A stretch of 63,740 nucleotides of DNA, from positions 1 through 63,740 of the forward strand of contig JAICIO010000024.1 in NCBI GenBank assembly GCA_025924315.1, written 5' to 3'. Position 1 is the first letter of the stretch; each line of letters begins with the position of its first letter. Below are positions 44,541 through 50,265 of the stretch, piece after piece. The DNA is from Phycisphaerae bacterium (GTDB taxonomy: Bacteria; Planctomycetota; Phycisphaerae; Tepidisphaerales; Tepidisphaeraceae). The notes under the pieces were generated by a model, which worked only from the letters and a program-made list of their open reading frames with translations, ran no database searches and was not told where the DNA came from. Both the position numbers and the translations under genes were made by a program.

Positions 44541-45524
44541 GTGATTTCGGTTTCAAACCTCACCAAGGTCTACGGCCAGACCTTGGCGGTGGACAACATT
44601 TCGTTCGAGGTAGGCAAAGGCCAGATCGTCGGATTTCTCGGGCCAAACGGCGCGGGAAAGTCGACGACGCTGCGCATGCTCACCTGCTACATGCCCCCGA
44701 CAAGCGGCGGGGCGAAGATCAACGGCCACGATATCTTTTTCGAATCGCAGAAGGTGCGCGAGAATCTCGGCTATCTGCCCGAGAACTGCCCGCTTTACAC
44801 GGAAATGAAGGTGCACGAGTACCTCGATTTCCGCGGACAACTTCGGGGGATGGATCGCGCATCACGGCGCAAGCGCATGGATTATGCGATGGAGCGCTGC
44901 TGGCTGACGAACGTTCGCAACAAGACGATCGGACATTTGTCGAAAGGCTACCGCCAGCGCGTGGGCCTTGCCGATGCGCTGCTTCACAACCCGCCGGTGC
45001 TGATCCTGGACGAACCCACCGTTGGTTTGGATCCCACACAAATCCGTGAAACGCGAAAGCTGATCAAGGACCTGGGCGGAGAGCACACGCTGCTGCTTTC
45101 GACGCACATCCTGCCGGAGGTCGAGGCGGTGTGCAGCCACGCGATCGTGATCGCTGGCGGAAAGATCGTCGCCCAAGGCTCGCCGGATGAATTGCGGTCG
45201 AGCCGTCGTTTGCAGGCGCGCGTGCTCGTCGAATGCAAAGGCCCGGCGAAGGAAGTCGAAACGGCGCTATCGCACGTGAGCGGCGTGGCGAATGTGGAGA
45301 TCCTCAATGGCGACACGGGCGCGGATAAGCATTATGTGACCGCGGCGCTCCGGCCCAAGGAAGCGTACGACATCCGCGAGGAAGTCGCGCGAACGATCAT
45401 TCAACACGGCTGGCCACTTCGCGAGATCCGATTGGAACATGCGACACTGGAGGAATTCTTCGTGCAGGTGACCGCCAATCAGGCGATAGCCAACGCCGCC
45501 AAGGCGAGCGGAGGTGCGGCATGA
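44541..45524 (+). CDS. ABC transporter ATP-binding protein, GldA-like
   Basis: A 327-residue cytoplasmic ATPase, start GTG 44541 after GAGGAAC. Walker A GPNGAGKSTTLRM (about 35-47), the ABC signature as HLSKGYRQRVGLADALLHNP (S-K-G instead of S-G-G) and Walker B PVLILDEPTVGLDPTQ are present; a DUF4162-like C-terminal domain follows. With the permease, the GldG-like protein and the DUF4340 protein downstream it forms the four-gene set known as GldA/GldF/GldG, first found in gliding motility of Bacteroidetes. In planctomycetes the set is common and its cargo unknown. The TGA stop overlaps the ATG of a 44-codon ORF. Confidence 0.9.
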   Translation: MISVSNLTKVYGQTLAVDNISFEVGKGQIVGFLGPNGAGKSTTLRMLTCYMPPTSGGAKINGHDIFFESQKVRENLGYLPENCPLYTEMKVHEYLDFRGQLRGMDRASRRKRMDYAMERCWLTNVRNKTIGHLSKGYRQRVGLADALLHNPPVLILDEPTVGLDPTQIRETRKLIKDLGGEHTLLLSTHILPEVEAVCSHAIVIAGGKIVAQGSPDELRSSRRLQARVLVECKGPAKEVETALSHVSGVANVEILNGDTGADKHYVTAALRPKEAYDIREEVARTIIQHGWPLREIRLEHATLEEFFVQVTANQAIANAAKASGGAA

Positions 45525-45655
45525 AGTGGCTTCCCTCTTATTTAGCCGCGGGCCTTGGCCCGCGCGGGAGCCGCGGAGTGAATGAGGTTTCGCGCGGGGC
45601 AAGCCCCGCGGCTAAATGGTCGTTCACCGATCGCGTCGAAAGGGGGCTCGCGTGA
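45521..45655 (+). CDS. 44-codon ORF coupling the ABC ATPase to the permease, carries an in-frame repeat element
   Basis: ATG 45521 overlaps the ATPase stop by ATGA, and the ORF's own TGA (45653-45655) overlaps the permease start GTG (45652) by GTGA. The frame stays open throughout, MKWLPSYLAAGLGPRGSRGV and on to SFTDRVERGLA, even though residues 7-32 are encoded by an inverted repeat (45540-45617). The coupling at both ends suggests a real translated link. No function is apparent. It may instead be the remains of a longer conserved peptide, or a by-product of the insertion. Confidence 0.5.
   Translation: MKWLPSYLAAGLGPRGSRGVNEVSRGASPAAKWSFTDRVERGLA
45540..45617. repeat. TTTAGCCGCGGG-family nested inverted repeat inside the linker ORF
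   Basis: The arms 45540-45566 and 45591-45617 pair except at two positions, where one reads GGGCCTTGGCCC and the other GGGGCTTGCCCC (complemented). Each arm keeps its own inner hairpin intact through paired changes. Confidence 0.9.
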
Positions 45656-46368
45656 ATCGCGCCTACGTAATCGCTCGTCGTGAATTGAGCAGCTACTTCT
45701 TTTCGCCGATCGCCTATGTCGCGATGACGCTCTTCCTGCTCATCTGCGGCGTGCTTTTCTGGAACGATTTCCGCCCCGGGCAACCCGCCGCCATGCGAAC
45801 CATCTTTGACTGGATGGTCTGGTTGCTGGTGTTCATCGTGCCGGTGCTTTCGATGGGATTGCTCGCCCAGGAATGGGCGACGGGCACCATCGAAACGATG
45901 ATGACGGCGCCGATCGGCGAGACCGACATGGTTCTCGGCAAGTTCGTCGGCTCGCTGCTGTTTTTCGTCGTGTTGCTCGTGCCGACGCTGCTGTACGTCG
46001 TGCTGCTGCGAATCTACGCTCATCCGGATTACGGCCCGATCATCAGCGGATATCTCGGGATCATTCTCGTCGGCGCGCTGTTCATCTCGATCGGCTTATT
46101 TTTCTCCTCGATCACGCGAAGCCAGGTCGTCGCCGCCGTCAGCGCCGCGGCTGTCCTATTCCTCGTGACGATTGTTCCCTGGTGGGCCGGCAGCAAGGCG
46201 ACGCTCGCCGGCTTCTGGCGCAAGGCCGCCGACCAGGGCGTGTTCAACCACTACACCGATTTCAGCAAAGGCATCATCGACAGCGGAAATTTCATCTTCT
46301 TCGTCGCGACGACCACCGTCTTTCTTTTCCTGACGGTGAAGGTCCTTGAATCGCGGCGGTGGAAGTAG
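45652..46368 (+). CDS. ABC-2-type permease, GldF-like
   Basis: A 238-residue membrane protein with six predicted helices. The start is GTG 45652 (MNRAYVIARRELSSYFFSPI), with AAAGGGGG as ribosome binding site; a GTG at 45616 lies in the repeat and is rejected. The helix starting YVAMTLFLLICGVLFWNDF, the Met/Trp loop MRTIFDWMVWLLVFIVPVLS and LLAQEWATGTIETMMTAPIG are ABC-2 features. It pairs with the ATPase upstream. The ending LTVKVLESRRWK is typical of GldF-type permeases. Gene order leaves little doubt it belongs to the GldA/F/G-like complex. Confidence 0.9.
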   Translation: MNRAYVIARRELSSYFFSPIAYVAMTLFLLICGVLFWNDFRPGQPAAMRTIFDWMVWLLVFIVPVLSMGLLAQEWATGTIETMMTAPIGETDMVLGKFVGSLLFFVVLLVPTLLYVVLLRIYAHPDYGPIISGYLGIILVGALFISIGLFFSSITRSQVVAAVSAAAVLFLVTIVPWWAGSKATLAGFWRKAADQGVFNHYTDFSKGIIDSGNFIFFVATTTVFLFLTVKVLESRRWK

Positions 46369-46378
46369 ACGTTCAAAC

Positions 46379-46433
46379 GTGACACGGGCTTCCAGCCCGC
46401 GCGCGGCCCGCACGGGCTGGAAGCCCGTGTCAC
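46379..46433. repeat. GTGACACGGGCTTCCAGCCCG perfect inverted repeat
   Basis: Perfect 21-base arms 46379-46399 and 46413-46433; each arm also folds (CGGGCT TCC AGCCCG). It lies in the 82-base gap between the permease and the GldG-like gene, so all three genes of the transporter set are separated by an element. Confidence 0.92.
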
Positions 46434-46450: not shown

Positions 46451-48640
46451 ATGGCAGAAGAAACGAAACCAAACTTTCTCCCGCAGAACCAGCAGGAACG
46501 CTGGCTGAAGTACGGCCTCAACGTGGGCGTCGCGATCATCGTCGTGATTGCCCTCGCAATCTGCATTACCTGGCTCGCGGAGAAGAAGCATCGCCGGATC
46601 GACACGACCGCGACGCGCGTCTACAGCCTTAAGCCGCAGACGCTCAACATCATCGATAACCTCAAATCGCCGGTGCGTATCGTCAGCCTCTATACAACCC
46701 CGCAGAAAACCGGTGCGACCGACGAAGATCGCATTAACGAGAACGCCGCCGACCAGACGACGGACTACAAGCAGATCGTTGCCGATCTGCTCGACGAATA
46801 TCACAGCAAGGGCAAGAACATCGAGGTCGAGAACATTGATCCGGTGGAAACGCCGAGCAAGGTCGACGACCTGATCAATTATGTGACGAACAAATATGGC
46901 GGCGAGGTCCAGAAGTACAAAGACTTCCTCGCCAAGTATCCGAGCCAGTTCGACAAGCTGAACAAGATCGCGACGGATGAGGCCGCACAGGTCACTAAGC
47001 TTCCGCTCGACCAGGCCGACACCCCTGAGCTGCAGCAGACCGTTGGCCTCGCGATTTTCTCTGTGCAGAATCTTCCGAAGCAGCTTACGAAGGGCAATGA
47101 ATCGATCGATCGCCTGCTGAAGAACACCAAACCACCCGACTACAAGCGCGCGACCGAGGCCGTGCAGTCGAACATGGAAACGCTGTCGACGCTTGTCGGC
47201 CAGGTCATCGATGACTTCTCGCACTACAAGGATGATGCGAAGGTCCCCGAAGCGATCCGCAAGTACATCACGGAAAGCATTCCGCGCTACGAGCAGATCA
47301 AGAAGATGTCGGACGACATCGCCACCGAGGTGAAAAACCTGGGTGAGCTGAAACTCGACGAGTTGCGGCAGAACCTTCGCCAGCAAAATTCGATCCTGGT
47401 GATGGGCGACAACGAGATGCGCTCGCTCACGTTCGAGCAGGTTTGGCCGCAGGACACCGACGTCAAGAACTACGTGCAGGACGCGCCGGTCAAGCGGCGC
47501 TTCGCGGGCGAGCAGCAGATCAGCACCGCGATTTTCTCGTTGCAGCAGAAGGGCAAGCGCAAGGTCGTGTTCATTCGTCCCGGTGGATCGCCGCTGACGG
47601 AGGCCGCCGTTCCGCTCTTCCGCCGCGGTGGGCCGCTCTCGATGGTTGCGGATCGCCTGCGCGACTACAACTTCGACGTGATGGAGAAGGATCTGAGCGG
47701 CATGTGGGCGATGCAGCAGCAGATGCAGCAACAGCAGATGCCCAGCGCCCCCGAGCCGACCGATGAACAGATCAAGGACGCGATCTGGGTCGTCGTGAAT
47801 ATTCCGAACGATCAACAACAGCCCGGAATGCCCCCGCCGGCGCCGATCGGCCCGAAGATCGCGCAGCATCTCAAAGACGGCTATCCGGTGCTCGTGCTGA
47901 TGTCCCCGCAGGCAGAGAACCTCGCGGAATCGCTCAAGGAATATGGCATCGAGACGCGTCCCGACGCCGTGGCGGTTCACGAAATCGTCCCGAACAACGG
48001 CGCGCGATCGAACGATATGGCCGACGAAGCGCAGCGCCTGCCGTTCGTCTTCGTCACCAACAAGTTCGGCGATCACGCGCTCACCAAGCCGCTCGCGTCC
48101 CTCGATTTCCTGGCGCTGGCGATGGTGCCGGTACAGAAGGCGGCCCCGTCCACGCAACCCACGACACAGCCCGTGACCGCGACCGCGCTGCTCACGCTGC
48201 CGGATCAGCCCAAGAGCTGGGGCGAAACGAACCTCGACAGCATCCAGTCCGATGCGCTCAAGTTCGACGATAAGACCGATCTTCCCGGCCCGATGACCGT
48301 CGCGATGGCGGGAGAAAAGGGCGGAAACCGCGTGGTCGTGCTCGGCGGCGTGCAGCCGTTCACGGATCAGATCCTCCGTATTCCGGATATCGAGATGGCC
48401 AAGCGCGGCCAGGCGGTCGCACGCTTCCCGGCCAACTCCGAACTGTTCGTGAACAGCATCTTCTGGCTCGCGAAGATGGAGCCGATGATCGCAATTTCGC
48501 CGAACGCGATGGAAGTCAGCCGCATCGCAGACATCAAGCCGGCGGCGCTGAACGCGTGGCGCGTAGGGTTGCTGCTCGTCGGCCTTCCGGGTTTGGTGGT
48601 GCTCAGCGGCCTGTTCGTCTACTTCTCGCGACGGGATTGA
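46451..48640 (+). CDS. GldG-like auxiliary component of the ABC complex
   Basis: A 729-residue protein with an N-terminal membrane helix (about 22-42, YGLNVGVAIIVVIALAICIT) and a C-terminal one (about 705-725), leaving a large periplasmic domain. That is the ABC_transp_aux / GldG layout: early RIDTTATRVYSLKPQTLNII, middle YNFDVMEKDLSGMWAMQQQM, then TALLTLPDQPKSWGETNLDS. A helical insertion of about 300 residues (YKDFLAKYPSQFDKLNKIAT on) between these parts is longer than I expect for the family. Met-rich and Gln-rich stretches (QQQMQQQQM) occur near residue 420. The start is ATG 46451; an earlier start would translate the repeat. Confidence 0.88.
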   Translation: MAEETKPNFLPQNQQERWLKYGLNVGVAIIVVIALAICITWLAEKKHRRIDTTATRVYSLKPQTLNIIDNLKSPVRIVSLYTTPQKTGATDEDRINENAADQTTDYKQIVADLLDEYHSKGKNIEVENIDPVETPSKVDDLINYVTNKYGGEVQKYKDFLAKYPSQFDKLNKIATDEAAQVTKLPLDQADTPELQQTVGLAIFSVQNLPKQLTKGNESIDRLLKNTKPPDYKRATEAVQSNMETLSTLVGQVIDDFSHYKDDAKVPEAIRKYITESIPRYEQIKKMSDDIATEVKNLGELKLDELRQNLRQQNSILVMGDNEMRSLTFEQVWPQDTDVKNYVQDAPVKRRFAGEQQISTAIFSLQQKGKRKVVFIRPGGSPLTEAAVPLFRRGGPLSMVADRLRDYNFDVMEKDLSGMWAMQQQMQQQQMPSAPEPTDEQIKDAIWVVVNIPNDQQQPGMPPPAPIGPKIAQHLKDGYPVLVLMSPQAENLAESLKEYGIETRPDAVAVHEIVPNNGARSNDMADEAQRLPFVFVTNKFGDHALTKPLASLDFLALAMVPVQKAAPSTQPTTQPVTATALLTLPDQPKSWGETNLDSIQSDALKFDDKTDLPGPMTVAMAGEKGGNRVVVLGGVQPFTDQILRIPDIEMAKRGQAVARFPANSELFVNSIFWLAKMEPMIAISPNAMEVSRIADIKPAALNAWRVGLLLVGLPGLVVLSGLFVYFSRRD

Positions 48641-48662
48641 TCCCGGTGAAACAACCGGAGAG

Positions 48663-48718
48663 CGAGGCTCCTGCCGAGCCGTCTTCGCTCAAAACGGAAC
48701 GGCTCGGCGGGAGCCTCG
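48663..48718. repeat. CGAGGCTCCTGCCGAGCC inverted repeat
   Basis: Arms 48663-48682 and 48699-48718 pair with one G-T-type mismatch, and each arm folds as GGCTC CTGCC GAGCC. It lies between the GldG-like gene and the DUF4340 gene. Confidence 0.88.
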
Positions 48719-48744
48719 CCCTCCCACAACGTTAATCGCTTCCC

Positions 48745-50265
48745 ATGAATTTCAAGACGACCATCGTTCTGATCGTGATCCTCGCCATCGTTGGTGTAGC
48801 GGTCTACCTCAGCAGCACCGAGAGCAGCGCACCGAAGGAAGAGGCCAAGCAGGCCAAGCTGCTCGATGTCTCCGCCACCGACATCAATAAGATCCGCATC
48901 ACGCCAACGACCGGCCCCGCGATTGCGCTGGAGCGCACGACCGGTACTCAATGGCGCATGACTTCACCAACGACCGCGCCCGCGGATGAATTCGCGGCAC
49001 AGGGCGTGGCTGATGCGCTCGCGGGTTTGCAGTCGCGCGCTGAGATCGACCCGAAAGGCGCCGACGCAGCCGCGACAGGTCTCGATCAGCCCGCGTTCCG
49101 CGTTGAAGCGGATACGAAAGACGGCAAGACGATCAAGCTCGCCGTCGGCAATCACTCCGGCGCGGGTGATGGCCTGTACGTTCGCAAGGAAGGCAACGAG
49201 AAGGCGAACATTGTCGCGCCGGACCTTTTCGAGCAGATCAACAAAGAGCCCGCGACGTTCCGAAGCACCGAGATCGTCCAGACCAAAACGCCCGAGGTGA
49301 AGCGCATCGAGATCGCCCACGGCGCGAACGCGATGACGATCTCCAAAGAAGGCAATGGATGGATGATCGGCGGACCGACGACCATGCCCGCGGACGAGAC
49401 GGAAGTTTCGGATCTGCTGTTCGCGGTCACAGGACTTCGCGCCGCGGAGTTCATCGACGACAGCGCTTCCAACGCCGCGAAGTACCAGCTCGATCATCCA
49501 CAGGCGAGCGTCACGCTTCACTCCGAGCCGGCGACAACAGAGCCGACGACTCAGCAAGTCGCGACAGTGATCAAGGTCGGCCGCTACCAGGACCTGACAA
49601 AAAAGAACGTTTTCGCGGAAGTGAACGACGGGCCGATCGTCGCAGTCCCTGCGAGCATTCTCACCTCGCTGGACAAGAAGCCGATCGAGCTGCGCGACAA
49701 GAACGTCTTGCGCGTTCCGCCGGCCCAGGTCACGAAGGTCACCATCGATTCGAATCTCGTCGCGACGACCCAGCCGACGTCTCGCCCCGCGAGCAAAAAG
49801 CAGATCGTGATCGCCCACGCTCCGCCTGAGCCCGCGACGACGCAGGCCTCGACTTCGCCTTCGACCACGCAATCATCGCGCACCGCCGAGAAGAAGAAGC
49901 AGGAGTGGAAACTCGTCGCGCCGACGCCAGGCGATGCGGACGATTCGAAGGTCACCGAGCTGCTCGACTCGTTCGATCCTCTGAAGGCGGACAAGTTCGT
50001 CGAAACGTCTGCTTCACAGCCCACCACTCAGCCGGCGGATCAATACACGGTGACGATCGAGACCGGCGGTCGCGCCGCCGCGCCGGTGCGAAAGTTCGTC
50101 GTCACCATCACGGATCCGGGCAGCAGCAAAACGCCGACGGCCGCCTATAATGGCCTGACGTTCGAGATCCCGCGATCGGTCGTGGAGAAATTGCAGGGCG
50201 ACTTCAAGCCCGGCGCCACGCCCGCCGCGCATGCGATCCCGACGCCGGGAGCTGAAAGTCCGTGA
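48745..50265 (+). CDS. DUF4340 protein of the Gld-like ABC complex
   Basis: A 506-residue protein with one N-terminal anchor ([20 protein letters not shown]) and a periplasmic body of repeated DUF4340 modules ([60 protein letters not shown]). Linkers rich in Thr/Gln/Pro ([21 protein letters not shown]) are lineage-typical. DUF4340 genes nearly always follow gldG, so it is probably a further subunit of the same envelope complex. The TGA stop overlaps the GTG start of queF (GTGA), giving an unexpected coupling between an envelope complex and a tRNA-modification enzyme. Confidence 0.88.

Follow-up and report, generated by a model that had tools for sequence, protein, structure and literature searches.

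The 44-codon open reading frame (ORF) between the ATPase and permease genes of an ABC transporter in a Phycisphaerae bacterium is very probably, at about 85 per cent, a by-product of a dispersed mobile element of the REPIN type that was inserted past the stop codon of the ATPase gene. It was found in a 63,740-nucleotide stretch of DNA (contig JAICIO010000024.1 of assembly GCA_025924315.1), the whole of which is referred to below as the window. On this explanation a puzzling small ORF is accounted for as the trace left by a mobile palindrome, and any short ORF with a repeat in it deserves a genome-wide comparison before it is called a gene.

The layout of the locus is given in Table 1. The ATG of the ORF and the stop codon of the ATPase gene overlap as ATGA, and the TGA of the ORF (45653-45655) and the permease start overlap as GTGA. 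A preliminary description, made from the letters of the window, had reported an ORF coupled at both ends, neighbours encoding an ABC ATPase and a permease, and a nested 78-base palindrome that keeps the frame open. Both overlaps were confirmed, the neighbours proved to be GldA-like and GldF-like (ABC-2), and the arms, the length and the open frame of the palindrome were found as described. The best NCBIfam model was TIGR03522 (GldA) for the ATPase, with 312 bits, under the curated cut-off of 402.6, and TIGR03518 for the permease, also with a score below the curated cut-off. Judged from the Shine-Dalgarno-like stretch of its own, AAAGGGGG, the permease could initiate independently.

Table 1. 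Features of the transporter cluster and of the palindromes in it (window coordinates)
Feature	Coordinates	Strand	Remarks
GldA-like ABC transporter ATPase gene	44541..45524	+	TGA stop 45522-45524; PF00005, E 1.3e-31
Shine-Dalgarno-like GGAGGTG	45510..45516	+	ahead of ATG 45521
44-codon ORF, ATG start	45521..45655	+	44 aa, MKWLPSYLAAGLGPRGSRGVNEVSRGASPAAKWSFTDRVERGLA
REPIN-type palindromic element	45540..45617	+	78 bp = 26 codons; 15 nt past ATPase stop
Left REP	45540..45564	+	7-nt tag ATTTAGC and 7-bp hairpin CGCGGGC-CTTG-GCCCGCG
Right REP	45593..45617	-	inverted copy of left REP; tag ATTTAGC on - strand
Shine-Dalgarno-like AAAGGGGG	45639..45646	+	5 nt ahead of GTG 45652; read from sequence
GldF-like ABC-2 permease	45652..46368	+	238 aa; GTG 45652 agrees with permease start of relatives
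Second dispersed palindrome	46379..46433	+	unrelated to 78-bp element; 10 nt past permease stop
GldG-like gene (DUF7088)	46451..48640	+	
Third dispersed palindrome	48657..48724	+	unrelated to 78-bp element; 16 nt past GldG-like stop
DUF4340 gene	48745..50265	+	last of transporter cluster

The palindrome is far beyond chance, as shown by its genome-wide repeats (see below) and by its fold as DNA (z = -6.4). Its arms (45540-45566 and 45591-45617) are 27 nt long each, 93% complementary and separated by 24 nt, and each arm alone folds into a hairpin of 7 bp that follows a tag of 7 nt. A comparison with Rfam gave nine matches at E values up to 1, all under the gathering scores and most of them to microRNA models that fit any long hairpin; an Rfam identity was rejected.

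When the junction was searched against its own genome, at least 78 aligned pieces were obtained, nearly all within the palindrome, and a pattern of the arm matched 70 times, at about 47 places, compared with no match for the reversed control. At least 37 full copies, that of the window included, align end to end over 76-82 bp. As a rule they begin with ATTTAGCCGCGG and finish with CGGCTAAAT; the ends of the family are fixed (ATTTAGC...GCTAAAT), and the tag ATTTAGC is present in nearly all copies. In the window the insertion most likely occurred at 45540-45617. The bases next to the 37 full copies are mostly pyrimidines on the left (36/37 at the first position) and mostly purines on the right (34/37), and no target duplication around the copies was evident by eye. 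In relatives of the same class the element is represented mainly by single arms, with longer matches in two genomes (G078 and G086), among the best eight candidates per genome.

The 16 bases to the right of the window element (45618-45633) match the flank of the copy at C4:52021 (G000:C4:52101-52116) with the exception of two C/T differences. No third place fits the degenerate pattern exactly, and 41 places lie within two mismatches; the comparison was made post hoc, and the shared flank may be due to chance.

The context of 39 copies was determined with a crude codon-usage ORF caller, the start positions of which are uncertain. Copies were located in codirectional gaps (25), divergent gaps (4), convergent gaps (3) and at a contig edge (1), and six overlapped a called ORF, two of these lying well inside it; 33 of the 39 are thus outside genes. 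Among the 25 codirectional-gap copies, the window's included, 20 are closer to the upstream stop codon. The distance from that stop is at most 15 nt for 19 of the 25, where a uniform distribution would give 8.4. The window copy, 15 nt past the ATPase stop, is placed typically for the family.

This placement bears on a role of the hairpin in the operon. The preliminary description had suggested that the hairpin sets the ATPase:permease ratio, in which case it would have been kept for stabilising the upstream mRNA, for stalling ribosomes near the ATPase stop or for partial termination. The RNA fold of the junction is strong (-89.4 kcal/mol, z -4.1), and the distance of 15 nt falls in the range for which a slowing of translation by REPs is reported in E. 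coli (PMC12306157, with reference to Liang et al. 2015). Unrelated dispersed palindromes have, moreover, come independently to the same junction in two other genomes: the homologous ATPase-permease gap holds such a palindrome in G021 (L012:1350-1500) and in G020 (L015:790-870, - strand), each with at least dozens of copies in its own genome, which makes three palindrome families in three genomes. However, several palindrome families are common in the genome and stand after the stops of many kinds of genes, the element itself having about 50 locations and two unrelated families occupying the two gaps that follow in this operon, and 5 of the 14 relatives of the same family have no spacer at all at the junction. 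The pattern of broken pairs also argues against this role. In the window copy the small hairpins have been kept (0/14 pairs broken, both arms together) at the expense of the long helix (2/14), as expected of transposase substrates, and a base pair of the left arm is flipped relative to the family consensus with the small hairpin preserved. In the 18 copies whose two arms share one form, 15/252 pairs are broken in the small hairpins and 23/252 in the long helix. These counts modestly favour the view that the unit conserved is the single hairpin; covariation within the arms is likewise modest, with about five double changes among the 54 arms of the 7/4/7 form (a second form comprises 20 arms). 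That the hairpin was kept for setting the ratio is, in our judgement, quite unlikely. A mild, incidental effect of the RNA hairpin on ATPase output is plausible, because its distance from the stop is in the range noted for the E. coli REPs.

On the mobile-element reading, the palindrome is most likely mobilised by a RAYT (HuH, IS200-like) transposase through recognition of the hairpin ends, as a transposase gene with the same ends suggests. Ten matches to Y1_Tnp (PF01797) were obtained in the genome, and at one of the eight loci examined the gene (C5:28306-28608) is situated between two inverted copies of exactly the element arms; this transposase-carrying copy, with the same arms as ends, spans 677 bp (G000:C5:28207-28883). 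The translated protein contains the motifs DHVH and Y..HNP, read by eye, which we take to be those of HuH transposases. The meaning of the HuH motifs is described in PMC6006769. With the NCBIfam model of the REP-associated tyrosine transposases (NF047646) the C5 protein scores 49.9 bits at a cut-off of 80, which weighs against the mobile-element reading; a relationship to the model is visible, and membership is not claimed. Among the relatives, G078 has a homologous transposase with arms on both sides (L191), and in G035 a row of four arms is found on one side of the homologous gene, within 400 nt (L194). Across 101 genomes, in which the element was detected among the best eight candidates per genome, a homologous transposase is present in 15 of the 20 element-positive genomes, compared with 23 of the 81 element-negative ones (Fisher p = 2e-4, without correction for relatedness). 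Less in favour of the mobile-element reading, just four of the 25 transposase loci that were inspected have an arm within 400 nt, one of the four being weak, and a homologue of the transposase was not detected in 5 of the 20 element-positive genomes.

Another transposase of the same genome is associated with the second palindrome family of the window (46379-46433), the arms of which bound it. At this locus (L187, G000:C124:13600-15893) a Y1 transposase (PF01797, 26.9 bits) is embedded in frame in an ORF (63-2210, + strand) for a DinG-type helicase of 715 aa (Helicase_C_2, 171.6 bits); the host gene seems to read through an entire transposase element.

The preliminary description argued that an insertion of no importance would have broken the frame, and it concluded that ribosomes probably need to pass the ORF. 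The argument from the frame is not supported. Among the 37 full copies the length is 78 bp in seven and divisible by three in eight, and the frame used by the window ORF is open in 14. If the 36 other copies are placed in silico at the window site, an ORF reaching the permease start is kept with six of them in the + orientation and with seven in the - orientation; over all three insertion phases it is kept in 13 of 216 cases. No doubly coupled ORF exists now at any of the 20 other codirectional copies that were examined out of 24 (the four others, L113, L115, L127 and L130, have downstream gaps of 218-274 nt). Empty sites were inferred for the same 20 copies; two in which the element runs into the end of a gene were skipped, and six had no 4-nt overlapping start. 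In the remaining 12, with a start overlapping the upstream stop, an equivalent ORF appears to have existed at two (L105 and L119). Such ORFs are not generally protected, because both appear to have been broken by the element. The rates at which the frame survives fit chance, and the open frame is only partly special. Moreover, a copy of the element lies in frame inside a gene for a TPR-repeat membrane protein (L131, G000:C36, 1776-1853) and another inside a membrane-protein gene with a PMT_2 match just under the cut-off (L118, G000:C120, 1784-1863). The former is translated as VAGLAPRE...RGASPAAKW, the window copy as AAGLGPRG...RGASPAAKW, and L118 has the same ending. The element is readable in the same frame in these genes; therefore the open frame in the window is less surprising.

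That the ORF encodes a true small subunit of the transporter, its gene having received an in-frame insertion, was also put forward in the preliminary description. The frame indeed stays open whether the 78 bp are present or removed (44 or 18 codons, the latter counted by hand), but 26 of the 44 codons are element sequence and the 44-aa product gave no family match in Pfam or NCBIfam. No homologue of the peptide was recognisable in the relatives, where the sole comparable ORF is unrelated (see below), and most of them show either a plain gap or a direct gene overlap at this position, an outcome of the kind that the preliminary description had itself named as refuting. We regard a subunit as extremely improbable, and any peptide made from the ORF would probably be without function.

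The junction was compared in 14 relatives of the same family (the whole family comprises 26 genomes, 15 of them with the permease). The ATPase and permease genes share a direct 4-nt overlap in five (L013, L014, L017, L020 and L021), the permease is extended in frame to the old start position in one (L023), a plain gap is found in six and a doubly coupled ORF in two. The last two, L010 and L011, are two species of one genus and carry, without the element, a 10-codon ORF (MNG[V/I]LIQERR) that overlaps the stop of the ATPase gene at one end and the start of the permease gene at the other; the other 12 of the 14 have no doubly coupled ORF, and this architecture is found in one sister genus alone. 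A short ORF without the insert, for which the preliminary description had recommended a search in related genomes, thus exists, although its peptide is unrelated in sequence. In the tree the window groups with the L010/L011 genus (support 0.79), with L013 next (0.85). The search for closer relatives yielded three loci, two of which were those of the sister genus, and among the 26 family genomes there was no junction closer to that of the window. The bases before the permease ATG in L013 (GGCGGTGCGGCATGA) and L014 (GGGGGTGCGGCATGA) match those before the ATG of the window ORF (GGAGGTGCGGCATGA), and the Shine-Dalgarno stretch upstream of the ORF also precedes the permease ATG in the direct-overlap relatives. 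Because of the direct overlap in relatives, the matching upstream bases and the position in the tree, the start of the window ORF is most simply read as the old permease start, from which the permease is now separated by DNA that includes the element.

These relatives also bear on an alternative, in which ribosomes that finish the ATPase restart on the ORF and then on the permease, so that ancestral coupling is preserved and the peptide is irrelevant. Such a role would agree with the direct overlap of the two genes in 5/14 relatives, with the good Shine-Dalgarno ahead of the window ORF and, in particular, with the sister genus (2/2 genomes with a 10-codon ORF and an overlap at each of its ends), where 24 of 25 gap bases are identical between the two species, compared with 76% of the permease third positions. 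This conservation is in part expected from the Shine-Dalgarno; nevertheless, the conserved gap with its doubly coupled ORF is not predicted by simple neutrality and counts against the by-product reading. On the other side, coupling has been lost altogether in 6/14 relatives, the element broke the inferred ORF at 2 of the 12 empty sites, the permease has its own Shine-Dalgarno, and translation would have to pass a helix of about 25 bp. A broader survey of the best-scoring 70 permease loci (66 tabulated, four being without a permease match; 65 usable after removal of L144 as an artefact) points the same way: an out-of-frame start overlapping the ATPase stop was found in 10 other lineages, of which the sister genus alone reaches the 4-nt overlap with the permease, while in L162 the ORF ends exactly at the permease start; these rates, too, fit chance. 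We give this alternative a small but real chance; the short ORF of the sister genus keeps the coupling proposed in the preliminary description live. A relay minicistron in the sense that, once DNA had separated the two coupled genes, selection kept a content-free short ORF running from one stop codon to the following start, the 78-bp mobile palindrome being absorbed as coding sequence of the coupling device and the sister genus retaining a 10-codon form, is considered unlikely. The locus offers a concrete case for asking whether bacteria, once translational coupling is broken, restore it by retaining short ORFs of this kind.

The by-product reading suggests the following course of events. A non-autonomous element, consisting of two inverted REP hairpins with an ATTTAGC tag each and a variable spacer, would be spread by the RAYT transposase acting on its hairpin ends, and one copy would have landed 15 nt past the ATPase stop. 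The ATG and the Shine-Dalgarno of the ORF would be those that the permease uses in the direct-overlap relatives; first a spacer and then the element probably came between this old start and the permease body, which would now start at GTG 45652 with its own Shine-Dalgarno.

Elements that enter coding frames are known from other bacteria: the palindromic elements of Rickettsia insert in frame in genes. The copies in L131 and L118 resemble them, being in frame and translated to the same ...RGASPAAKW ending as in the window, whereas the present element is mostly extragenic and has a link to a transposase. The ATGA-type coupling by termination-reinitiation (PMC6728339) has a counterpart in the 4-nt overlap at each end of the ORF; unlike the cases described there, two overlaps stand here in series via a short non-conserved ORF, and the coupling is putative, deduced from sequence. 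REPs within 15 nt of a stop are reported to slow translation of the upstream gene in E. coli (PMC12306157, citing Liang, Rudd and Deutscher 2015). The hairpin behind the ATPase stop and the 19 of 25 codirectional-gap copies at similar distances are comparable in position, although they belong to another family in another phylum. The TIRtrons (TIRYT) and their TIR repeat families, as presented in PMC3733652 and PMC6006769 with the consensus GGGG[AT][CG]A[CG], likewise have a RAYT-like gene between inverted repeats and a moderately abundant family with the same ends; in contrast to them, the ends of the present element fold as REP-like hairpins.

The closest likeness is to the REPINs and BIMEs, described as inverted doublets of REPs that RAYT transposases mobilise (PMC3116915, PMC6006769), and to the arrangement of REPs or REPINs with a RAYT gene (PMC3116915, PMC3733652, PMC6006769). 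As in these, two inverted hairpin REPs, each arm with its own hairpin, enclose a less conserved spacer, tens of dispersed copies are chiefly extragenic, and a RAYT (Y1 transposase) gene is flanked by the same REPs. The GTAG (GT[AG]G) or CGTC tag at the foot of the hairpin, by contrast, is absent, its place being taken by ATTTAGC; this counts against the by-product reading, and the element was not filed in the canonical REP super-families. The window also contains a GTAG-tagged palindrome family of the GTAGGGTCCGCTTCAGCGGACC type (at 2454, 22605, 23587, 42680 and 59343), mostly as inverted pairs with paired hairpin changes, which looks like a canonical GTAG REPIN family alongside the ATTTAGC family. 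A further difference from the REPINs reported in these sources is that the arms form the exact ends of the transposase copy, in the manner of a small insertion sequence. In a literature search made mostly at the level of titles, which does not prove novelty, no title describing an ATTTAGC family was found. With the present work a REPIN-type family is added from a planctomycete lineage; its tag is unusual, and the ends of its members also bound a copy carrying a transposase.
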